Assembly: GCF_900176605.1 (NCBI RefSeq)
Contig: NZ_FXLP01000004.1
Location: 248,001-312,000 of the forward strand
Source of the DNA: Peptoniphilus vaginalis
Lineage (GTDB): Bacteria > Bacillota > Clostridia > Tissierellales > Peptoniphilaceae
DNA length: 64,000 bases
Reading direction: 5' to 3'
Part shown: in pieces, positions 9,005 to 44,983 of the stretch
Layout of the letters: the number at the start of each line of letters is the position of its first letter
Position numbering within the stretch: position 1 is the first letter of the stretch
Translations under genes and position numbers: made by a program
Notes under the pieces: generated by a model
The model's database searches: none
What the model was told of the DNA's origin: nothing
What the model saw: the letters and a program-made list of their open reading frames with translations, nothing else

Positions 9005-9287
9005 AAAAAAAACCTCGTCTCTAATACAAAGAGACGAGGTTAATAAACTCGCGGTACCACTCTAATTCATCTTAATGATGCACTTATCCAATAATGAATT
9101 TCTCTGTAACGGGAGATCCCGAAAATACTTACTTGTTTCAGCATTTTAGTTCAGTGGGGATTTTTCGGTAAATTCAATTTCTTGCCTCTCAGCTAATGGC
9201 AATTCTCTGTAAAAACATTCTTCACTTACTTTTCCACTTCAAAACTTTTTAAATCACTATGAAAATTTATAGCTTTTTTAAATCGTT
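9005..9287 (-). promoter_or_regulatory. T-box riboswitch 1 (leader of YkvI copy 1 and gldA)
   Basis: The core AGAGTGGTACCGCG lies at 9050-9063 (minus strand), followed by a terminator with an 11-bp GC-rich stem and a U-run at 9005-9041. Upstream are the Stem I landmarks AGTAAG, ACAGAGAATTGCC and GCTGAGAGGC. The lower Stem I helix is AGTGG/CCACT. The specifier-loop strand reads CGAAAAATCC, and the triplet at the position used by T-box 2 is AAT. The UGGU of the T-box would pair with a tRNA whose discriminator base is A. Transcription would start near 9287. An IS200-type element now separates the leader from the gene. Confidence 0.9.
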
Positions 9288-10629: not shown

Positions 10630-10926
10630 AAAAAAACCCCGTCTCTTTATATACAAAGAGACGAGGTTAATAAACTCGCGGTACCACTCTAATTCATCTT
10701 AATGATGCACTTATCCAATAATGAACTTCTCTGTAACGGGAGATCCCGAAAAAACCTACTTATTCTTGTTCAGCCTTCCTGTTCCGTGGCTAGTGTTCAG
10801 TAAATTCCTTAATTTGCCTCTCAGCTAATGGCAATTCTCTGTAAAAAATTTCTCTACCTACTTTTCCACTTCAAAACATTTGAAATAAAAATTAAATTCT
10901 TCATCCAAAAGAATTTTTTTAATTTA
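10630..10926 (-). promoter_or_regulatory. T-box riboswitch 2 (probable Thr specifier ACT)
   Basis: The core AGAGTGGTACCGCG is at 10677-10690, with a terminator stem and U-run at 10630-10667. Stem I elements match T-box 1 (GAAGTGGAAAAGTA, ACAGAGAATTGCC, GCTGAGAGGC). The specifier strand reads TGAACACTAG between the helices TTTAC and CCAC, so the triplet at the expected place is ACT followed by a purine, which codes for threonine. The UGGU tail pairs with A73. The antiterminator and terminator parts are nearly identical to T-box 1, while the Stem I tops differ. Confidence 0.92.
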
Positions 10927-12748: not shown

Positions 12749-13788
12749 TGCGACACCTAAATTAAACTAAGTTCATGTAAAAATAATTCAAATGGAGTTT
12801 GATAATTTAGACATTTCCTAGGTCTGCTGTTAAGCTCCATTAAATTTTTAATAAGATCTTCTTCAGATATCTCTGCTAAATCTGTCTTTTTAGGATAATA
12901 TTCTCTCAATAGACCATTTGAATTTTCATTACTTCCTCTTTGCCATGCTGAATATGGGTCAGCAAAGTAAAAGTCTATCCCAAGCTTTTCAACTTCATCA
13001 TAGCAAGCAAATTCTTTTCCTCTATCTGATGTAAAACTTTTTAAGGCTTCTTTTGGAAGTGATTTAACAAGTTTATTGATTGCTTCAAACATTGAATCTT
13101 TGCTTCTATCTTTCATTGGTAATGCTATATAAAACCTTGTTTTTCTTTCAACAAATGTTGCTAAGCACCCTTTGCTTTTTCCTCTAGAAGACACAACTGT
13201 ATCAAGTTCCCAGTCTTGTGCCCCTTGGGTATGTCCGAAGGAAACCCTATACTTTATGTTTTTTGGTCTTTTTCTTATAGATGTACCTATGTTAAATTTT
13301 CCTCTTGTTTCTTTGCTTTTTCTAGACTTACCTTTTCTTCTTAATCTTGAAATATCAAAATCTATTACTCCAGAATAAATCCAGTTATATATTGTTTTAA
13401 AGCTTAATATTCCTTTATAAAGGCAACCTACAATTTGCTCAGGTGACCATTTAGAATTAAGCTTTTCTTTGATATTTTCTAATATTTCATAAGTTACTTT
13501 AGTTTTTCTTCCTTTTAATGATGATTTAGATTCTTTATCTCTTTCTGCTAGGTCAGCAACGTATTCAGTATCACATCTTTTAAGCTCTCTAGCTATTGTG
13601 GAATGATGACATCCTAAAATTTTCGCTATTCTTCTAGAAGAATAGCCCTCTTTGTTTAATACCTCTATCTTATTTCTTTCGTTTAGTGTAAGATGTTTAT
13701 AGCTCATATTAACCTCCGTGTGTGGTTTTGTCGTTATTAACATTTTACACGAAGTTAGTATGAGTTTTTATTTTTTATTTGTGTCGCA
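12749..13788 (-). mobile_element. IS30-family insertion sequence
   Basis: A ~1.04-kb element bounded by TGCGACAC at 12749-12756 and its inverse GTGTCGCA at 13781-13788, with a further related stretch inside each end (ACTAAGTTCATGTAAAA versus ACTAACTTCGTGTAAAA). It contains one intact transposase gene. A target duplication could not be called with confidence. Confidence 0.85.
12757..13707 (-). CDS. IS30-family transposase
   Basis: About 316 residues from ATG 13707, which has GGAGGTTAAT upstream (the frame also opens 36 nt earlier without a ribosome site). An N-terminal HTH of the HTH_38 type (LTLNERNKIEVLNKEGYSSR) is followed by the DDE catalytic core: Asp in WELDTVVSSRG, Asp in FTSDRGKEFA, and Glu in GSNENSNGLLREYYPK. 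The protein is intact and ends inside the left inverted repeat, so the element may be active. It inserts itself by cut-and-paste or circle formation typical of IS30. Confidence 0.93.
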   Translation of the reverse strand: MSYKHLTLNERNKIEVLNKEGYSSRRIAKILGCHHSTIARELKRCDTEYVADLAERDKESKSSLKGRKTKVTYEILENIKEKLNSKWSPEQIVGCLYKGILSFKTIYNWIYSGVIDFDISRLRRKGKSRKSKETRGKFNIGTSIRKRPKNIKYRVSFGHTQGAQDWELDTVVSSRGKSKGCLATFVERKTRFYIALPMKDRSKDSMFEAINKLVKSLPKEALKSFTSDRGKEFACYDEVEKLGIDFYFADPYSAWQRGSNENSNGLLREYYPKKTDLAEISEEDLIKNLMELNSRPRKCLNYQTPFELFLHELSLI

Positions 13789-13900: not shown

Positions 13901-14563
13901 TTAATCTTTATTTTCTTCTTTTTTAATTTTCTCGTCGATTCTTTCTACAGAAACTGTTTCTATAACGCCACCACTTGCCATCTTGACAATTTGGAAGATG
14001 TATTCGCCATCGTCGACAATAACTCCAACTTCTGCTTCTTCTGCATTCTTAATAAGAAGACCAGCTACGTAACCACCAATTGTCGTAGTCTCTCCTGCCT
14101 CAATATCAAATCCATACCTCTTGTTTAGGACCTTCATAGGGATTGATGCAGAGTATTCGTTGCCTTCGCCATCTGTAACCATATTTACTCCTGTTAATAA
14201 GAATTTTCTAACAGCAAAGAGGACTGCTATGGCTATAGTTGCTACAAGTAAGTCAAGCATATTATCAGAGTAAACTAGCATCTTTCTAGAAATTACAAGT
14301 AAAATCAAGTGAATGATGTTAGTATCTGTATGTGCAATCATAAGTACCACAAACTCTATAGCTATTACTAGCAAGAGGACGTGGGATAGAAAATTTTGGA
14401 ATATTTCATAGGATGACCCAGCATCACTTGTAATTATCTTAAAATAATACTTCATAATATCTGGCACTGAAACTATTACTCCAGCTATTAGCAGAACTGA
14501 GACAACTATTTCAAAAATATTCACTAATTTTAAAAGTGTAACCAGGTATCTATTTCTATTCAT
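13901..14563 (-). CDS. PsiE-like membrane protein with C-terminal CorC/HlyC-type domain
   Basis: 220 residues. Four hydrophobic segments (about residues 12-35, 55-80, 84-98 and 103-122) resemble the PsiE-like transmembrane family. The C-terminal ~80 residues (GFDIEAGETTTIGGYVAGLL...GEYIFQIVKMASGGVIETVSVERI) look like the transporter-associated CorC_HlyC domain, thought to bind small ligands. The gene shares its first base with the sigma-factor stop, so it is translated with it. A role as a stress-regulated membrane protein is plausible but inferred from the neighbouring sigma factor. It is the last gene before a strong terminator. Confidence 0.68.
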   Translation of the reverse strand: MNRNRYLVTLLKLVNIFEIVVSVLLIAGVIVSVPDIMKYYFKIITSDAGSSYEIFQNFLSHVLLLVIAIEFVVLMIAHTDTNIIHLILLVISRKMLVYSDNMLDLLVATIAIAVLFAVRKFLLTGVNMVTDGEGNEYSASIPMKVLNKRYGFDIEAGETTTIGGYVAGLLIKNAEEAEVGVIVDDGEYIFQIVKMASGGVIETVSVERIDEKIKKEENKD

Positions 14564-15348
14564 TATACCTCCATGGTCTTAGCGACTTCTTTTCTCATCT
14601 TTTCCAAGACCTTCTTCTCGATTCTTGACACTGTCATTTGAGAAATGTTTAATTTCTTTGCAATTACAACTTGGGTCTTCTTGTTAAAGTATCTGTCAAT
14701 TAGAATTGTCCTCTCAACTTCGTCTAAGTTCTCCATAGCCTTCTTAAAGAAGTCGTTAGACTCTATCTTGTCAAAGTATTCTTCTTCGACTCCAATTAAG
14801 TCAGATAGATTGACTTCACTTTCATCTCCTGATTCATAAGTGACATCAAGAGATTGTGGTGTATAAACCTTAGATGCCTCCATGGCCTCCATGACTTCTT
14901 CTGGAGTTGAGTCCAAATATTCTGCAATTTCGTCTATAGTTGGAGTCTTTTGATACTTTTGTGAAAGGCTCACAGTTGCATTGGAGATTTTCTTTGAAAG
15001 TTCTTGGATTCTCCTTGGGACCCTAATAGTCCAACCATTATCCCTAAAATATTTTTTTATTTCTCCAATTATTGTTGGAGTGGCAAAGGAAGAAAATTCA
15101 AATCCCTTTTCAGGGTCATATCTCTCAATGGCATAGATTAGACCAATTGATGCCACCTGATAGATGTCGTCATAATCTATTCCCCTGCCTGTGTATTTTT
15201 TAGATAGGATTTCTGCAATGTAAAGATGTTCTTCTATAAGGATATCCCTTATTTCCTGATCTTTTGTCTCATGATATTCCTTAAATAGGTCCTTTCTCTC
15301 TTCCTTTGTTAGCCTTCTATCTAAATTGTTGTATTCTTTTAAATTCAT
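14563..15348 (-). CDS. sigma-70 family factor of the SigB/SigF group
   Basis: 261 residues with region 2 (YDDIYQVASIGLIYAIERYDPEKGFEFSS and ATPTIIGEIKKYFRDN), region 3 (VPRRIQELSKKIS) and region 4 (LDEVERTILIDRYFNKKTQ and the HTH VIAKKLNISQMTVSRIEKKVL). This is the SigB/SigF/SigG subgroup. Upstream lie an antagonist and an atypical anti-sigma factor, the usual partner-switch order. The locus follows gyrA directly, so basal transcription may come from the gyrase operon. No spore genes are seen here, so general stress control is more likely than sporulation, though this cannot be settled from sequence. Confidence 0.9.
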   Translation of the reverse strand: MNLKEYNNLDRRLTKEERKDLFKEYHETKDQEIRDILIEEHLYIAEILSKKYTGRGIDYDDIYQVASIGLIYAIERYDPEKGFEFSSFATPTIIGEIKKYFRDNGWTIRVPRRIQELSKKISNATVSLSQKYQKTPTIDEIAEYLDSTPEEVMEAMEASKVYTPQSLDVTYESGDESEVNLSDLIGVEEEYFDKIESNDFFKKAMENLDEVERTILIDRYFNKKTQVVIAKKLNISQMTVSRIEKKVLEKMRKEVAKTMEV

Positions 15349-15357
15349 AGCAGACCC

Positions 15358-15708
15358 TTATAATTTTTTAGATAAAATAAATTTACTTCCATCAAAATGA
15401 GATTCATCTACAAGACAATCTATAATAGTCTTTGCAAGAGATAGGTCATCAGATGCTTCTAATTTTTCCTCGCTAATTTCACTTACACAAATTTTTATAT
15501 TTTTATCTTCTTCTATTTCAAAGACCAAGTCTATGTGGTCATCTTCAGTTAACTCGTGACAAATATTTAAACTTTCTGTCACAGCCATTTTTATATCTTC
15601 TATTTCTTCAATATCTCTATTTAGGATGTTTAAGATACCTGAAAGCATAAGTCTAACTGTAGAAAAATATTTGGCATCATTGGGTATTTGATATTTTAAA
15701 GTATCCAT
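15358..15708 (-). CDS. RsbW/SpoIIAB-like anti-sigma factor with degenerate ATP site
   Basis: About 116 residues from ATG 15708 (GGGGG upstream); the frame also opens at 15738 within the upstream gene. The N-terminal half follows the GHKL anti-sigma fold (DIKMAVTESLNICHELTE, an N-box-like helix), but Glu and Asn are one residue closer than in the usual ExxxN. The DxGxG and GxGL boxes are not recognisable: the segment where they should be reads ISEEKLEASDDLSLAKTIID. It may bind the sigma factor without kinase activity. It starts 1 nt after the antagonist stop and ends 10 nt before the sigma gene, so assignment rests partly on context. Confidence 0.72.
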   Translation of the reverse strand: MDTLKYQIPNDAKYFSTVRLMLSGILNILNRDIEEIEDIKMAVTESLNICHELTEDDHIDLVFEIEEDKNIKICVSEISEEKLEASDDLSLAKTIIDCLVDESHFDGSKFILSKKL

Positions 15709-15709
15709 A

Positions 15710-16021
15710 CTACCCCCTGATTTCAAACATATCTTCAAGTTTTGTTATCTTAAAGAGTTTCATTATTGAAGGATTTAGGTTTTCAATTACAATTTTATGG
15801 CCTTCCTTTTCCACTTCCTTTAAGATGTAGATAAGAGAGCCAAGACCTGTAGAGTCTAGGTATTCTAGCTCTTTACAGTCAAACAAAATGTCCTTTTTAT
15901 CCTTTTCATAAAACTTCATAGATTTTTCCTTGAAATTTTTTGTATTATAAACGTCAAGTTCTCCCTTTGGATACATTATCAAAAATTCGTCAGTATTTTT
16001 TGCCTCTAATTTAAATTCCAT
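15710..16021 (-). CDS. STAS-domain anti-sigma factor antagonist (RsbV/SpoIIAA type)
   Basis: 103 residues, a single STAS domain. The phosphorylation motif is YLDSTGLGSLI with Ser57 at the position phosphorylated by the cognate anti-sigma kinase. In the partner switch the unphosphorylated antagonist frees the sigma factor. The gene lies 8 nt after gyrA and is followed at once by the anti-sigma factor and the sigma gene. Because the partner here seems to lack an ATP site, the phosphorylation step could be missing or use another kinase (inference). Confidence 0.88.
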   Translation of the reverse strand: MEFKLEAKNTDEFLIMYPKGELDVYNTKNFKEKSMKFYEKDKKDILFDCKELEYLDSTGLGSLIYILKEVEKEGHKIVIENLNPSIMKLFKITKLEDMFEIRG

Positions 16022-16029
16022 AAGGCCTC

Positions 16030-18459
16030 CTAGTCTCCAATATAATTTGCAACAGCTACAACTTTTGCATCTGTCAAATTCATAAGTTTAACACCAGATG
16101 TGTTTCTTCCTTGGACAGAGATGTCTTCAGTTAGGATTCTTATAATAATTCCAGAATTTGCAATTATCATAACATCATCTTCTTTTTCTACTACAGCAGC
16201 TGAAGCTACATATCCTGTTTTATTAGTAATCTTATAAGTTAGAAGTCCCTTACCACCCCTATTTTGTGGTCTGTATTTATTTATTTCAGTTAATTTTCCA
16301 TAACCATTTTCTGATATAACAAGAAGGTACTTGTCATCTACTACAAGATCAGATGAAACTACAATGTCATCTTTATCAAGGTCTATGGACTTAACTCCCA
16401 TGGAGTTTCTAGCAGATTTTCTAACTTGTTCTTCATTAAATCTAATTGATAGACCCTTTTTAGTTACAAGTATTACATCTTCATCATCTTTAGTCAAATG
16501 AACGTCGATTAATTTGTCGCCTTCATTTAATTTTATAGCAATGATACCAGATTTTCTAATATTTTTATAATCCTTAAATGGAGTCCTCTTAATAAGTCCC
16601 TTTTCAGTTACCATTAAGAAGTTAAGATCTGGGTCATATTCCTTAACAGGTATTATAGAAGTAACCCTTTCATCTTCACTTAGGTCAAGTAGGTTAATTA
16701 TGGCAGTACCCCTTGATGTCCTAGAGTCTTCTGGAATTTCATAAGCCTTTAACTTGAAGACATTTCCAAGAGATGTGAAGAATAAAATCATATCATGAGT
16801 AGAAGTTACAAATAATTCTTTTACAAAGTCCTTGTCCCTCATATTGCCAGAAGAAACTCCCCTGCCACCTCTTTTTTGTGGCTTATAAGTTCCCTCGCTC
16901 ATCCTCTTGATATAGCCAAATTGAGTAAGAGTTATAACAACATCCTCTTTCTTTATAATGTCTTCAATTTCTATATCAGTTCTACCATGTGATATTACAG
17001 TTCTTCTTAAATCTCCATATTTTTCTTTTATTTCAAGAAGTTCTTCCTTGATTAGGTTCATAAGAACATCATTATTATCTAAGATTTCCTTAAACCACTT
17101 GATGTCAGCTTGAAGTTTTTCATATTCAGCTTCAAGTCTATCTCTTTCAAGTCCTGTAAGTCTTCTAATCCTCATATCCAAGATAGCTTGGGATTGTTCA
17201 TCTGTTAATTTAAATTCTTCGTAGAACTTTTCCTTTGCTTCCTTGTCATCCTTAGATCCCCTAACAATTTTTATAATCCTGTCAATATTGTCAAGAGCTA
17301 TAAAAAGACCTTCAACTATGTGGGCTCTCTTTTCTGCCTTGTCTAAGTCAAACTTTGTCCTTCTAGTTACAACTTCAACTTGGTGGTCTACATAGTATCT
17401 AATAATTTGCTTTAGGTTTAAGATTTCTGGTCTTCCATTTACTAAGGCAAGATTTATTATCCCAAAAGTTGTTTGCATTTGAGTGTTTTTGTAAAGCTTA
17501 TTTAAAACAACTTCTGCATTAGCATCTCTTTTTAGTTCAACAATTATATTGATGCCCTTTCTATTTGAGGCATCAGTGATATTTGAAATTCCATCAATAA
17601 CCTTGTTCTTTGCAAGGTCTGCAATCTTCATAATAAGTGCAGACTTGTTAACTTGATAAGGAAGTTCTGTTATTACAATTTTTTCACGATTGTTCTTAAA
17701 GGATTTAATTTCAGCAACTGCCCTTACAGTTATCTTTCCTCTTCCAGTTTCGTAGGCTTCTTTAATCCCATCAGTTCCCATAATTTGAGCACCTGTAGGA
17801 AAGTCTGGTCCCTTTATAATTTGATTAAGTTCGGCAATAGAAATTTCATCATTGTCAATGTAGGCTATGATTCCGTCAATGGACTCATTCATATTGTGAG
17901 GAGGCATATTTGTAGCCATACCTACGGCAATACCACTGGATCCATTTACCAATAGATTTGGAAATCTTGCTGGAAGTATTGTAGGTTCCTTTTCGTTTTC
18001 ATCAAAGTTTGGAACAAAATCAACAGTTTCCTTATTAATATCCCTTAGCATTTCTTCTGCAAGCTTGGTCATCCTAACTTCTGTGTAACGCATAGCCGCA
18101 GCCCCGTCACCGTCGATGTTACCAAAGTTACCTTGACCATCAACTAGGGTGTATCTAGTATTAAAGTCTTGTGCAAGTCTAACTGTTGCTTCGTAAATAG
18201 ATGAGTCACCATGAGGGTGATACTTACCCATTACATCCCCAACAAGTCTTGCTGACTTTCTATAAGGTCCATTGGATACAAGATTAAGTCCCTGCATTCC
18301 ATATAAAATTCTTCTGTGGACTGGTTTTAGTCCATCACGTACATCAGGAAGTGCCCTTGCAACAATTACAGACATTGAATAGTCAAGATAAGAAGACCTC
18401 ATCTTTTTATTAATATCTACATTAAGTATTCCTGATTCTATAATATTATTTTCACTCAT
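16030..18459 (-). CDS. gyrA: DNA gyrase subunit A
   Basis: 809 residues, full length. The N-terminal breakage-reunion domain has the active-site tyrosine in [10 protein letters not shown] and the quinolone-region [10 protein letters not shown] (Ser and Glu at the two main resistance positions, i.e. the susceptible type). The GyrA-box PQKRGGRG opens the C-terminal beta-pinwheel that wraps DNA. It forms A2B2 with GyrB and introduces negative supercoils. gyrB ends 9 nt upstream and the STAS gene follows after 8 nt, extending the gyrase transcript into a sigma partner-switch module. Confidence 0.98.
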
Positions 18460-40021: not shown

Positions 40022-40729
40022 ATGAACAAGAAAACATCTAACATAGTCCTTATAATATCAGCAATAATTCCCTTTGGACTTCAGTTATCTGGCATAAAAA
40101 CAGTCCTTGGCAATGGGTCAATTATGTACTCAATCATGTGGGCTTTAGTAAACTACCTATTTTTGATGACAGCAGTGGAATTCATATCAAAGTACAAGAA
40201 AATTCTAAAACTTGAGGACCTAAATATAAAAAAGAGGACCTACAACTTAAACGTCTTTATTTATATAGGCTTTTTGCTTTTTGTAAATATTTACTTTTTC
40301 CAACAAATGTATATGAGAGATAACAAGATCATCAATATATTTGCAAATCCATTATTTTTAATAGGGCTATTACTCCTATTTTTATTTAACCTACAAAATG
40401 GAAAATTCCCTAGCAGAGAAGACAAGGATACAATAATTTATGACATACCACAAAAGTCATCCTTTAGAGATGGCAGGGACAAACTTGGAACTCTTGTGGG
40501 ATCCTATGGCAAGGGACTTGTACTTGGAAATGATTACTTTCCCTACGAATATATGAAATCTATTTCCAAGTCAAAGAACGATGAAATTGTTATAAAAGGT
40601 AAGGAAGGATTTAGGAACTATATAGTAAATATTGGGTCCAAAAACTCAGCAAATCAAGCAACTATTGAAATTAACAAGGCCCTTAATGATGGAAAAATCG
40701 ACGAGAAAAAAATAAATTTAAAAAAATAA
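40022..40729 (+). CDS. unknown membrane protein with cytoplasmic C-terminal domain
   Basis: 235 residues. Four hydrophobic segments (about 8-22, 32-50, 75-92, 105-121) are followed by a soluble ~110-residue part (SREDKDTIIYDIPQKSS, GNDYFPYEYMKSISKSKNDEIVIKGKEGFRNYIVNIGS), which looks like a PH-like domain of the DUF5673 kind; this is tentative. AGAGGAAAC precedes the ATG. It is the last gene of the folE transcript. Confidence 0.6.
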   Translation: MNKKTSNIVLIISAIIPFGLQLSGIKTVLGNGSIMYSIMWALVNYLFLMTAVEFISKYKKILKLEDLNIKKRTYNLNVFIYIGFLLFVNIYFFQQMYMRDNKIINIFANPLFLIGLLLLFLFNLQNGKFPSREDKDTIIYDIPQKSSFRDGRDKLGTLVGSYGKGLVLGNDYFPYEYMKSISKSKNDEIVIKGKEGFRNYIVNIGSKNSANQATIEINKALNDGKIDEKKINLKK

Positions 40730-40748: not shown

Positions 40749-40777
40749 TTGACAAAATAACTTTAGTGCTCTATACT
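40749..40777 (+). promoter_or_regulatory. strong sigma-A promoter of the orphan RNA
   Basis: TTGACA (40749-40754), 17 bp, TATACT (40772-40777). It is one of the best promoters in the window. Confidence 0.85.
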
Positions 40778-40783
40778 ATAGAT

Positions 40784-40995
40784 AAGCTAGCTAGAGAAAA
40801 CAAATTGGTAACTAAGAAAAGGTGATTCCAATGACAAGTTTTAATTTATCCCGCAAGGGAAAGGTAGCAAAGTACCTCATTTGAAAGTAGCTTATTGCTA
40901 AAGGTTGAATGCTTAATTTACGAGGTATAGAGCTATAGTTACATAACAATTGAAAATTTTTAAATCAAGAGATCCAGATGGGTCTCTTTTTGTTT
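40784..40995 (+). ncRNA. orphan structured RNA candidate, about 212 nt
   Basis: A consensus promoter at 40749-40777 and a 9-bp Rho-independent terminator at 40967-40991 delimit this transcript. The ends can close by a 12-bp helix: AATTG+GTAACTA (40803-40814) with TAGTTAC and CAATT (40936-40942, 40947-40951). Inside are a hairpin with a GCAA tetraloop (TCCC/GGGA, 40849-40860) and AGGTA/TACCT (40862-40877). It is not tied to a neighbouring gene: the next ORF is more than 700 bp away. It contains a 17-codon ORF. I could not assign it to a known RNA class. Confidence 0.6.
40831..40884 (+). CDS. 17-residue small ORF within the orphan RNA
   Basis: ATG 40831 follows AGGTGA at a normal distance and encodes MTSFNLSRKGKVAKYLI, stopping at TGA 40882-40884. 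The ORF overlaps both inner hairpins, so translation would alter the fold, as in leader-peptide attenuators. It may instead be a small protein or chance. Confidence 0.4.
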   Translation: MTSFNLSRKGKVAKYLI

Positions 40996-40997
40996 TA
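40967..40997 (+). terminator. terminator of the orphan RNA
   Basis: AAGAGATCC, AGAT loop, GGGTCTCTT, then a T-rich tract. Confidence 0.85.
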
Positions 40998-41360: not shown

Positions 41361-41389
41361 TTGACAAAAGGAATTGCCAAGCTTATAGT
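41361..41389 (+). promoter_or_regulatory. promoter of the lipoprotein gene
   Basis: TTGACA (41361-41366), 17 bp, TATAGT (41384-41389). The leader to ATG 41729 would be about 330 nt, long enough for a regulatory RNA, but no known class is recognised in it. Confidence 0.7.
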
Positions 41390-41728
41390 GTAGATATAAA
41401 GTATATACAGTTTAAAATTTTTATTACATAAATTTTATCTTGCAAATTAAAAAGACAGCAGATATAATGATTATTGTATTAAGGAGTTGATACAAAAGTA
41501 CAAGTATTTTATGTGTAAGCTAAAAAAAGTCCTGGATAGATGATGCAGGGTTGGTCTAAGCAAAAGTAATCCAAAACAAAATCAAATCCAAGCAAGGCGA
41601 ATAAAATATTATGAAAATTTATAAGAATTTCTTATTAATAAGTTAATTTAATTTATTTTATGTAATATTGTTTTAATTTGAAAGGCTTCTCTGGGTTTGA
41701 TAAAATCAAAGCAAATAGGAGGTATACT

Positions 41729-43489
41729 ATGAAAAAGAAAATTTTAACTATTTTTCTTGTACTTATTGCAGCCATAACTCTTGGCGCTTGTAGTGCAAAC
41801 ACAACAGCATATCTAGATGCATCTCAAAAGGTTGCAAACTGGAAGGGCTCAAAGGTTTCTGGACAACTTGAATACAATGTTGAAGTAAAAAATCCTGAAA
41901 CTAAAGAAGTCGTAAAAATGAAATTCCCTGTAAGCCTTACTGGTGAACAAGTTGGAAAAGATAAGGCTCATGTTTTAATGAATATGGACTTCACAAACTT
42001 AAAAAAAGAAATTGCAAAAGTTTCTAATAGCCAAAAAGAAATCGCTGGCCTTAATAAAGATGTGCCAGACAAGATCAAGATGGACCTTTATGTAAAGGGC
42101 AATGAAGTTATCATGTCAAAAGATATCTTTACAATTGGAAATGAATCCTTCAAGAACATCAAGGAAGGCTACATCTCAATTGCAGATGAAAGAAATGGTC
42201 TTTCACCAAAAGCTGCACAATACTTTAACTCCGAAGAATTTAAGACAGACCTAATCAAGTTAATGGACCTTGCATCAAAGGGTATTAAACAAGAAATTGA
42301 CTTCAAAGTTGAAGGCAACACATACACATTAAATGCAAGTAGTGACGCTATAATTGACCAGTTCATCAAGTCAGCTGACGGCGTTATGAAAAATTGGGAC
42401 GCAGTTTCAACATCTGCCTTAGCAATTGTTGACAAGGCTGGACTTCCAATGAATGATGAAGAAAGAAAAAGCTTCAAAGAACTTAACAAAGAATACAAGG
42501 CAGAAGACCTAAAAGAAGCTGCTAAGGGCATAAAAGAAATGATTAAGGGATCAAATATTTCTCAAAAGACAACTTTTGAAGAAAACAAAGTTATCCAAGA
42601 TCTAGCAATGCAATTTAACTTTGCAGACTTTATAAAAGTTTCTGTTAAGGGAAAAGTTAACACAGTAAAAGATGAAAATGTAAAAATCAACTTCCCAACT
42701 TCAGTTAAAAAATTAACTACAGAAGAATACATGAAGTTAATCATGCCAAATGTAACTCTTGTAACAGTAAGAGTAAATGGAGAAGATATCACTTTTGAAG
42801 ACCCAGAAGCTCTTCCAAAGATTATGAATGACAGAACTATGTTAGCAGCTCGTGCTTTCTATGAAAAAATCGGCGCAAAAGTTGATTGGAATGGAAAAGA
42901 CAGAAGTGTAACAGTTACAAAGGACAAGAACAAAATCGTCTTAAAGATTGATTCTAACAAGGCTCTTGTAAATGGAAAAGAAGTTGCACTTGACTCTCCA
43001 GCAGTTATTGTAAAAGACAAAACTTACATCCCTGTAAGATTCGTATCTGAAGCCTTTGGTTATAAGGTTAAATACGACAAGAACGATGGAATGCCAATAG
43101 TTGATATTTACAACATGACAGAAAAAGAATTAGAAGCTAAGCTTGCAGAAATTGAAAAAGAAGAAAACTACAAGATAATCGCTTCAATGAAAACTGACCT
43201 TAAAGACGAAGAAGTTGTTAAAAATTTAAAAGAACTTTATGAAGGCGAAGAATTAAATAAATTACTTGCAGCAAAAGCTGACCTTGACAAGAACCCTGAA
43301 CTTCTAAAGAAATACCAAGAAGAAAATAAAAAAGAAATGGAAGAATTCTTAAAAGAAGATAAGGAAGAAGTTAAGAAAGAAAAAGCTGACAAGAAAGAAA
43401 CTAAAGAAGTTAAAGAAGAAAAAGTTGCTGAAAAGACAGAAAAATCTGCCGAAAAAGTAGCAAAGGTTCTTTTCTCAGTAGTAAAATAA
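41729..43489 (+). CDS. surface lipoprotein with copper-amine-oxidase-like (stalk) domain
   Basis: About 586 residues from ATG 41729, with AGGAGGT upstream. Lipoprotein signal KILTIFLVLIAAITLGACS with the lipobox cysteine at about 20. A long N-terminal region (to ~345) resembles the DUF6612-like/LolA-type repeats, then comes a copper amine oxidase N-terminal-like domain (VNGEDITFEDPEALP, TMLAARAFYEKIGAKVDWN, KTYIPVRFVSEAFGYKVKYD). The last ~80 residues are Lys/Glu-rich and probably coiled. No amine oxidase activity is implied; the domain is a wall-associated module in anaerobes. An IS3 element follows at once. Confidence 0.87.
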   Translation: MKKKILTIFLVLIAAITLGACSANTTAYLDASQKVANWKGSKVSGQLEYNVEVKNPETKEVVKMKFPVSLTGEQVGKDKAHVLMNMDFTNLKKEIAKVSNSQKEIAGLNKDVPDKIKMDLYVKGNEVIMSKDIFTIGNESFKNIKEGYISIADERNGLSPKAAQYFNSEEFKTDLIKLMDLASKGIKQEIDFKVEGNTYTLNASSDAIIDQFIKSADGVMKNWDAVSTSALAIVDKAGLPMNDEERKSFKELNKEYKAEDLKEAAKGIKEMIKGSNISQKTTFEENKVIQDLAMQFNFADFIKVSVKGKVNTVKDENVKINFPTSVKKLTTEEYMKLIMPNVTLVTVRVNGEDITFEDPEALPKIMNDRTMLAARAFYEKIGAKVDWNGKDRSVTVTKDKNKIVLKIDSNKALVNGKEVALDSPAVIVKDKTYIPVRFVSEAFGYKVKYDKNDGMPIVDIYNMTEKELEAKLAEIEKEENYKIIASMKTDLKDEEVVKNLKELYEGEELNKLLAAKADLDKNPELLKKYQEENKKEMEEFLKEDKEEVKKEKADKKETKEVKEEKVAEKTEKSAEKVAKVLFSVVK

Positions 43490-43568: not shown

Positions 43569-44126
43569 ATGGCAAAATACAAAACAGAATTTAAGGTTAA
43601 AGTAGTAAAAGAATATCTTGAAGGAAATGTAAGTTACAAAGACTTAGCAAAAAAATACTCCATACCAGATAAACATATCGTTAGAACTTGGGTTAATGCT
43701 TATGAATCTCAAGGCTATGAAGGACTAAAAGTATCAAGAAAAAATAATAACTACTCTTTAGACTTAAAACTAAATGTAGTAGACTTGTATTTAACAGGAG
43801 AAATGTCCTATCAAAGCCTAGCAAATGAACTTAAAATCAGCAATCCATCCATGATAGCTAGATGGGTAAAAGAATTTAGAGACGAAGGCATAGAAGGACT
43901 GAAACCAAAAAAGAGAGGAAGACCTTTAAATATGCCAAATACAGATAAAAATAAAGATTTAAAAAACAAACATAATAAAACAAAAAAAGAATTGAGTGAA
44001 TTAGAAAAACTAAGAAAAGAAAACTACTATCTTCAAATGGAAGTAGAAATTCTAAAAAAAAAGATTCAATTCTCTCAAATGACAGAAACAGAAATAGACG
44101 AATATCTAAGGTCATTAGATCATTAA
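43569..44126 (+). CDS. IS3-family transposase OrfA
   Basis: 185 residues. Two successive helix-turn-helix units (VVKEYLEGNVSYKDLAKKYSI and VVDLYLTGEMSYQSLANELKI) are followed by a leucine-zipper-like coiled coil (LEKLRKENYYLQMEVEILKKK). It binds the IS ends. AAGGAGG precedes the ATG. Near its end the heptamer A AAA AAG (44057-44063) allows a -1 shift into orfB. Confidence 0.92.
   Translation: MAKYKTEFKVKVVKEYLEGNVSYKDLAKKYSIPDKHIVRTWVNAYESQGYEGLKVSRKNNNYSLDLKLNVVDLYLTGEMSYQSLANELKISNPSMIARWVKEFRDEGIEGLKPKKRGRPLNMPNTDKNKDLKNKHNKTKKELSELEKLRKENYYLQMEVEILKKKIQFSQMTETEIDEYLRSLDH
44057..44063 (+). other. programmed -1 ribosomal frameshift site
   Basis: A AAA AAG in the orfA zero frame, inside a longer A-run. 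The -1 frame is open from here through the end of orfB, so OrfAB can be made, as in other IS3 elements. Confidence 0.8.
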
Positions 44127-44983
44127 GAGATAAATTCAAACTAAATGATCTTTTAGAATACTTTAACTTTCCAAAATCAAGCTACATGTATTGGCAACAA
44201 CGCTTAGACATACCAAACAAAGATGAGCAAGTAGAGAAGAAAATACTAGAGATTAGAAAAGATAATCCAAACTATGGATACAGAAGAATAACAGCAATGT
44301 TAAAGAAAACAGGGCTTTTGATAAATAAAAAGAAAGTTCAAAGACTAGTACAAAAGCTAAAACTTCAAGTAACAAACTTCTCAAGAAAAACAAGAAAATA
44401 CTCATCATACAAAGGAACAATAGGTAGAGTAGCAGACAATAAAATAAATAGAAACTTTAAAGTAGAAAAAGCCTACACATATATAACAACAGATACAACA
44501 GAATTTAAGTATCTAGAAAAAGATACAAAAGACAACTATCAAGTAAAAAAACTTTATCTAAATCCATATTTAGATATGTATAATGGTGAAATAATATCCT
44601 ATGAGATATCAAAACAACCAACACTAGAACCAATACTAAAAGCCTTAGACAAAGCAATAGAAATAACAAGCACTAACAAGAATAAGAGGATCTTTCATTC
44701 AGACCAAGGATGGGCTTATCAAATAAAACAATATACATCAAGACTTGAAAAAGAAGGGATAACCCAATCGATGTCAAGAAAGGGAAATTGCCTAGATAAC
44801 TCCCCAATGGAAAACTTCTTCGGGATACTTAAACAAGAAATCTACTATGGCAAGAAATTCTATTCATATGAAGAATTAAAAGAAACAATAGAAGAGTATA
44901 TAGAATATTACAATAAAGACAGAATAAAAGAAAAATTAGGATATTTAAGTCCAGTGGAATATAGAAAGTTAAACGCAGCATAA
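44063..44983 (+). CDS. IS3-family transposase OrfB (catalytic part of OrfAB)
   Basis: This frame is entered by the -1 shift; a stand-alone ATG exists at 44186. It contains an HTH_21 segment (DNPNYGYRRITAMLKKTG) and the rve DDE core: Asp in YITTDTTEFKYL, Asp in FHSDQGWAYQ and Glu in PMENFFGILKQEIYY. It is complete, so the IS may still be active. The region between the OrfA stop and the ATG has no stop in this frame. Confidence 0.9.
   Translation, partial: DSILSNDRNRNRRISKVIRSLRDKFKLNDLLEYFNFPKSSYMYWQQRLDIPNKDEQVEKKILEIRKDNPNYGYRRITAMLKKTGLLINKKKVQRLVQKLKLQVTNFSRKTRKYSSYKGTIGRVADNKINRNFKVEKAYTYITTDTTEFKYLEKDTKDNYQVKKLYLNPYLDMYNGEIISYEISKQPTLEPILKALDKAIEITSTNKNKRIFHSDQGWAYQIKQYTSRLEKEGITQSMSRKGNCLDNSPMENFFGILKQEIYYGKKFYSYEELKETIEEYIEYYNKDRIKEKLGYLSPVEYRKLNAA

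Follow-up and report, generated by a model that had tools for sequence, protein, structure and literature searches.

The element described here lies on the forward strand of the window, by which we mean the whole 64,000-nt stretch of Peptoniphilus vaginalis DNA that was analysed. It forms a free-standing unit at 40749-40992 that comprises a promoter, an inferred RNA of about 208 nt, a 17-codon ORF and a terminator (Table 1). The sequence-only reading of this locus had described a consensus promoter, a good terminator, a small ORF with a good ribosome site and a GCAA hairpin, and all four features are present. Shine-Dalgarno (SD) complementarity was scored against what we take to be the sequence of the 16S tail. 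The motif AGGTGATNCCNNTG occurs exactly once in the window, at the SD, and four times with one mismatch, against 0.52 expected. As 16 of the 55 ORFs in the window match over at least 7 nt, on a lenient measure that scores each ORF by its best start among up to eight, the ribosome site of the element is good rather than exceptional.

The next downstream same-strand ORF of at least 60 aa encodes a lipoprotein, whose frame is listed from 41678, whose ATG lies about 730 nt on and which is probably outside the RNA unit. A second consensus sigma-A promoter is found about 330 nt 5' of the lipoprotein start and would give a long leader (41361-41728). Elsewhere in the window there are two T-box leaders (RF00230) on the minus strand (9027-9251 and 10654-10883), an IS3-like transposase gene pair (43569-44983) and an IS30-like transposase (12757-13743; by eye).

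Table 1. Features of the RNA unit, its neighbours and the sigma-factor gene cluster in the window.
Feature	Position	Strand	Remarks
Predicted membrane protein	40022-40729	+	No Pfam/NCBIfam match; adjoins the RNA in 11/11 loci examined for gene order
Sigma-A-type promoter TTGACA-N17-TATACT	40749-40777	+	11/12 consensus positions; transcription start inferred at ~40784
Inferred ~208-nt transcript	40784-40992	+	From promoter and terminator; start inferred from the -10 box
Shine-Dalgarno AGGTGAT	40820-40826	+	7-nt match to the 16S tail
17-codon ORF MTSFNLSRKGKVAKYLI	40831-40884	+	Stop TGA two nt 5' of HP1 GTAGC
HP0 hairpin UCCC-GCAA-GGGA	40849-40860	+	Within ORF; begins 18 nt past the A of AUG
P0 5' strand GUAGC	40864-40868	+	Partner 40932-40936
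P1 5' strand GUACCUC	40872-40878	+	Partner 40922-40928
HP1 UAGC-loop-GCUA	40888-40900	+	All cells paired (100%) in 21-sequence alignment
HP2 UGAAU-GCUUA-AUUUA	40906-40920	+	Three pairs with double changes in 21-sequence alignment
P1 3' strand GAGGUAU	40922-40928	+	
P0 3' strand GCUAU	40932-40936	+	
Conserved, apparently unpaired tail ACAAUUGAA	40946-40954	+	5' of terminator; from alignments
Intrinsic terminator	40967-40992	+	9-bp stem 40967-40988, then T tail
Lipoprotein, Cu_amine_oxidN1 domain	41729-43489	+	Own promoter-like site TTGACA-N17-TATAGT, 41361-41389
SigB/F/G-family sigma factor	14563-15348	-	Adjoins RsbW-like and STAS genes
RsbW-like gene	15358-15738	-	Below NCBIfam cut-offs
STAS gene	15710-16021	-	

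The element is single-copy in its own genome and in each genome in which our models found it. Eleven of 13 same-genus relatives carry all or most of it at 78-97% identity, the closest being G003, which is 97% identical to the window copy over element positions 1-243. G001 and G007 gave matches of 24 and 19 nt only, and at their syntenic loci (L088 and L089) the RNA is absent and the membrane and lipoprotein genes stand next to each other, in that order. Other than those in G057 and G077, matches of 19-45 nt were dropped, most of them judged by length alone. A first model (R1) matched 20 of 130 genomes of the family at E ≤ 0.1, with one match each. We kept 19 of these loci (12 in the window's genus, g1, four in a sister genus, g9, and three in a second, g14) and dropped G034 (E 0.083), which was coding-like and by eye lacked the HP1 motif. 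A second model (R2) added G181 (g9) and G026 (g14), giving 21 loci in 21 genomes of one family (f1), namely 12 of the 14 g1 genomes, five of g9 and four of g14. Among 249 genomes of the order (13 matches) and 391 of the class (4 matches), R2 had no match outside f1, though it recovers only four of the 12 g1 loci, so that distant relatives may be missed. A degenerate pattern run over named genomes gave 14 matches, 13 of them in Peptoniphilus; the remaining match, in Acinetobacter (L079), was rejected by eye. A pattern scan of viral contigs gave no match, and blastn found no phage or plasmid relatives. A terminator-like hairpin was found by script in 20 of the 21 loci, the one picked in G010 being an overlapping alternative hairpin, and in the last (G076) it is visible in the sequence.

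The RNA had initially been read as closed by a long-range helix, GUAACUA/UAGUUAC together with AAUUG/CAAUU. This helix can form in the window copy, but across 12 sequences none of its 12 pairs shows double changes, six contain unpaired cells, and its pairing (93.8% of cells) is no better than in shuffles (94.1%). Nor does folding energy settle the matter, as the fold of the window copy has a z-score of -1.58 and is equalled by 15 of 200 shuffles, which is on its own weak evidence of structure. The core obtained with RNAalifold is a different one, in which P1 closes a junction of two hairpins, HP1 (UAGC/GCUA) and HP2 (UGAAU/AUUUA). The junction of the sister genera is closed by P0, a stem of 6-10 pairs (such as UAUCAUAG/CUAUGAUA, GAUUAUAG/CUAUAAUC and AUCACAAUA/UAUUGUGAU). 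Compensatory changes between genera are seen in P0, HP1 and HP2, and in HP1 they take the form of UA to CG and CG to UA replacements.

We evaluated this fold on three sets of sequences. In a sequence-only alignment of seven sister-genus sequences, from which the scored structure was itself drawn, four of 16 pairs had double changes (one of 500 shuffles as high) and 94.6% of cells paired (23 of 500 as high). Sliding the partner strand reduced pairing to 27-42%, and the number of further pair types was not above that of shuffles (227 of 500). With all 21 sequences (19 distinct), 11 of 16 pairs had double changes as against 3.5 in shuffles, none of 500 being as high, in an alignment that was fitted to the model, and is hence biased towards the structure, and in which the g1 assignment of P0 was forced. 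When g1 is taken alone, the share of paired cells is 97.3%, and neither this nor the covariation score is equalled in any shuffle; a single core pair, in P1, has double changes (three sequences), and 425 of 500 shuffles do as well. Kissing between the HP1 and HP2 loops was also considered; the loops are complementary by eye in some members (such as G009 and G181), not in the window, and we did not retain it. Together these comparative data give good support to a three-way junction of P0/P1, HP1 and HP2, in place of the long-range closing helix, as the core fold. With same-genus conservation and covariation between genera, the element is, by these sequence comparisons, conserved beyond chance, and its standing as a family of homologous RNAs is well supported.

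In all 21 loci, each of which has an SD, the frame that starts at the conserved AUG runs for 17-23 codons before its stop; TTG takes the place of ATG as start codon in G076, as it does in two of the upstream mini-ORFs. In g1 the stop codons fall at one place, 1-2 nt 5' of the GUAGC of HP1, as TGA in ten loci, TAA in G011 and TAG in G005, and across loci the 5' strand of P0 falls within the end of the ORF. The embedded ORF is probably translated, and its place as part of the element is well supported. The encoded peptide differs between genera in length (17-23) and in its residues. Within g1 its C-terminal half varies little outside G005, a locus with a rewritten middle, and in G011 two codons change from Lys to Arg through double base changes.

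A simple account of these data would be that the transcript merely serves as messenger for a small basic peptide, with conserved folds that act as elements of mRNA stability or translation. The constancy of ORF and SD in 21 of 21 loci fits this, as do the preserved C-terminal half (G005 aside) and the Lys to Arg changes in g1, and the sigma-B-dependent RNAs SbrA and SbrB of Staphylococcus aureus encode putative basic peptides (PMC3861533). The peptide-only reading is weakened, however, because conservation of the peptide between genera is missing; the rewritten middle of G005 also counts against it, and the best conserved part of the element is the RNA 3' of the stop codon. We regard a peptide mRNA as an unlikely explanation, albeit one that carries some weight.

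A further feature of the ORF is the hairpin HP0. A script that covered offsets of 18-22 nt from the A of AUG placed its start at 18-20 nt in 20 of the 21 loci and gave no hairpin in G005; the stem assigned by hand in G181 starts at 22. Its letters are replaced between genera and its position stays about constant. In seven of the nine sister-genus loci the stem has 5-10 pairs, a length that no more than 10 of 500 mononucleotide shuffles attain; in G077, in G088 and in the g1 loci taken singly it is not significant against shuffles. HP0 sits at about the position of the leading edge of an initiating ribosome. All five g9 loci (L044, L046, L047, L048 and L068) carry, in addition, one to three extra mini-ORFs upstream, each of 7-11 codons. 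These form a tandem array of two to four near-identical ribosome sites of the GGUGAU type, one of them GCGUGAU (G076), at a spacing of 52-57 nt. Loci of g1 and of the second sister genus have one ribosome site each.

Such arrays could indicate an RNA that engages ribosomes, its tandem initiation sites titrating or parking 30S/70S ribosomes in stress. The regular spacing and short upstream ORFs of the five g9 loci, the position of HP0 near the front edge of an initiating ribosome and the sigma-B-like promoters of the sister genera (below) would all be in keeping with this. In its most explicit form the RNA would be a stress-induced trap, with one to four SD/AUG sites about 52 nt apart, the last held by HP0, and a junction that folds once the last ribosome leaves, so that it would act as a sigma-B-controlled gauge or sink for translation capacity. 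We give that version little credence. The general reading is likewise improbable, given the single site in g1 and in the second sister genus and an SD match of 7 nt that is not exceptional among the window's ORFs, and it leaves the conserved three-way junction without explanation.

The surroundings of the RNA bear on whether it acts in cis. The membrane-protein gene is also its neighbour, by coordinates, in G026 and G181. Homology of this protein was tested in G057, G077, G026, G181, G001 and G007 (34-46% identity) and judged by eye in the others, and among the 11 loci the gene is co-directional with the RNA in the four of g1 and divergent in the other seven. Downstream, a lipoprotein of the Cu_amine_oxidN1 type follows in g1 and g9 loci (by eye). 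In G003 two genes are inserted before it, and where the stretch ends it shows up solely as an antisense frame. In G026, G077 and G088 the terminator is immediately followed by a gene for another secreted protein, and in G058 the downstream gene is trmB-like. Consensus promoters before the lipoprotein gene are also seen by eye in G057 and G181.

The absence of any gene within 700 bp had been taken to mean that the element is no ordinary attenuator. This holds for the window, but the directly adjoining gene in G026, G077 and G088 means that it cannot be said of all members. The element resembles leader-peptide attenuators in having a short ORF that ends at the base of a structure, followed by a terminator and, in these three relatives, directly by a gene; it differs from them in having no conserved antiterminator and, in the window, no gene close by. 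As a cis-acting leader, translation of the ORF would control readthrough of the terminator into an envelope-protein gene. The gene directly after the terminator in the three g14 genomes, with little room for a promoter, fits a leader RNA, and for most of the 11 loci examined for gene order the next same-strand gene is envelope- or secreted-protein-like. In G026 (L067; p 0.0125) and G021 (L047; p 0.0025) the ORF strand is similar to the terminator's 3' arm, can pair with the terminator arm and could serve as an antiterminator. In the other 18 of the 20 loci scored, by contrast, this antiterminator pairing is not significant, with p ≥ 0.2 in all 12 g1 loci. The next gene in the window is also remote and has its own promoter-like site, with similar promoters in G057 and G181, and the insertion in G003 and the trmB-like gene in G058 also count against this reading. 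A conserved attenuator is thus not supported by the sequences compared, and we consider a cis-acting leader quite unlikely.

We then evaluated the promoters. All 12 g1 loci have TTGACA-N17-TATACT or TATAAT, and a sigma-B-like site within two mismatches is absent from all 12, the window included. All nine g9 and g14 loci have a sigma-B-like GTTT[AGT][AG]-N13-GGGTA[AT] (of the GTTTAA-N13-GGGTAT type), a pattern written after the sequences had been seen and matched by loci that are related by descent. Such a site at a spacing of 12-14 arises in 0-3 of 2000 shuffles per sister-genus locus. In several of these loci a TATAAT-like stretch lies just 3' of GGGTAW (by eye), leaving room for another start. 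A stricter pattern, GTTTWA-N12-14-GGGTAW, occurs two to seven times per genome (39 sites in nine sister-genus genomes), and is the promoter of the RNA in six of the nine loci. Genome-wide it is no commoner than a reversed control, and some sites lie inside genes. Among the 30 of these 39 sites that were inspected are some that lie 7-25 nt upstream of a gene for an anti-sigma-like HATPase, in G076, G181, G058, G077 and G088, the HATPase_c_2 domain having been checked in three of these five genes. In g1 there are 71 such sites, of which 30 were inspected; an anti-sigma-like HATPase gene follows in G000, G003, G012 and G007, and sigma-B-type boxes stand 29-70 nt before genes recognised by eye as ferritin-, superoxide dismutase- and MsrA-like (L157, L166, L173, L175, L163 and L164). 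These g1 sites are a probable general-stress regulon of Peptoniphilus.

A SigB/F/G sigma factor scores over the cut-off in all 23 genomes. In the window its gene, with the RsbW-like and STAS genes, lies directly downstream of a gyrA-like gene (16030-18459, minus strand; by eye). This sigma factor is the likely controller of the RNA in the sister genera, and for their copies the link to stress is reasonably supported by the promoter sequences. The window copy, with its own sigma-A-type promoter, would inherit that link by homology only. The two kinds of promoter suggest that the same RNA has moved between stress and housekeeping promoters.

Comparison with known RNAs gave no close relative. No family of Rfam 15 scored over gathering for the window copy or for the loci of six of the 20 relatives, and at E ≤ 10 the element region had two matches (E 2.2 and 5.1), both far below gathering. 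A resemblance to 6S RNA had been suggested. 6S RNA has the shape of a long rod with a central bubble. The element is similar in being free-standing, about 200 nt long and from a Gram-positive bacterium, and no 6S RNA was found in the genome; unlike 6S it folds as a three-way junction and contains an ORF, and a whole-genome scan with RF00013 gave nothing at E ≤ 1, while in a control six of 14 genomes match, four of them over the cut-off. A divergent 6S RNA is accordingly a most improbable identity for the element. The raiA motif RNA is a structured RNA of about 210 nt that is distributed in Gram-positive bacteria. The element is alike in size and in being structured, but RF03072 likewise gave nothing across the genome at E ≤ 1, the control here being weak (four of 14 genomes match, none over the cut-off).

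By behaviour rather than by sequence comparison, SbrA and SbrB of S. aureus may be the nearest known kind. In the available portion of PMC3861533 they are sigma-B-dependent small RNAs encoding putative basic peptides, and for SbrB a dual function is proposed. What the element appears to share with them is a sigma-B-like promoter (in the sister genera), a short free-standing unit with a terminator, an embedded small ORF and a basic peptide (in the window's genus). The element differs in belonging to another lineage and in the sigma-A promoter of the window copy, and that portion of PMC3861533 mentions neither a three-way junction nor tandem mini-ORFs for SbrA and SbrB. The retrieved portions of the literature on small RNA, noncoding RNA and riboswitches in Peptoniphilus, and of structured-RNA surveys, contain no such RNA. 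We read the element as a new RNA family, without Rfam match and not yet described in these bacteria, and the earlier suggestion of a new RNA class or a dual-function RNA is plausible for an orphan, structured RNA of this kind.

By comparison, then, Peptoniphilus and its sister genera share a conserved gene for a structured RNA. We propose, tentatively and at slightly less than an even chance, that this RNA acts in trans, probably with a dual function, in the general stress response. The varied downstream neighbour (lipoprotein, other secreted protein, trmB-like, inserted genes) counts for this proposal; the two g1 genomes that lack it (G001 and G007) count against. Because the copies of the sister lineages sit behind a general-stress-like promoter, the RNA is probably a stress-response regulator. 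The conserved unit, its fold, its open frame and its promoter types can be read directly from the genomes compared, and from these we infer a mode of action. A ribosome translating the ORF would hold the P0/P1 strand open. After translation termination the junction would close and present the HP1/HP2 core and a single-stranded ACAAUU tail, which may then meet a partner, either a target RNA or a protein, the RNA acting in trans. Control of output would lie in transcription, which probably depends on sigma-B in two genera and on a sigma-A promoter in g1. Translation might protect or gate the RNA, and in g1 the basic peptide may also act in its own right.

The finding adds a structured RNA family without Rfam match to Peptoniphilus, which are common human-associated anaerobes, and ties it to their probable sigma-B stress system. 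It also offers a case in which an RNA fold and a tiny ORF evolve together, the position of a hairpin being kept within coding sequence as its letters are replaced, and the tandem arrays of mini-ORFs open a ribosome-sensing function to direct testing.
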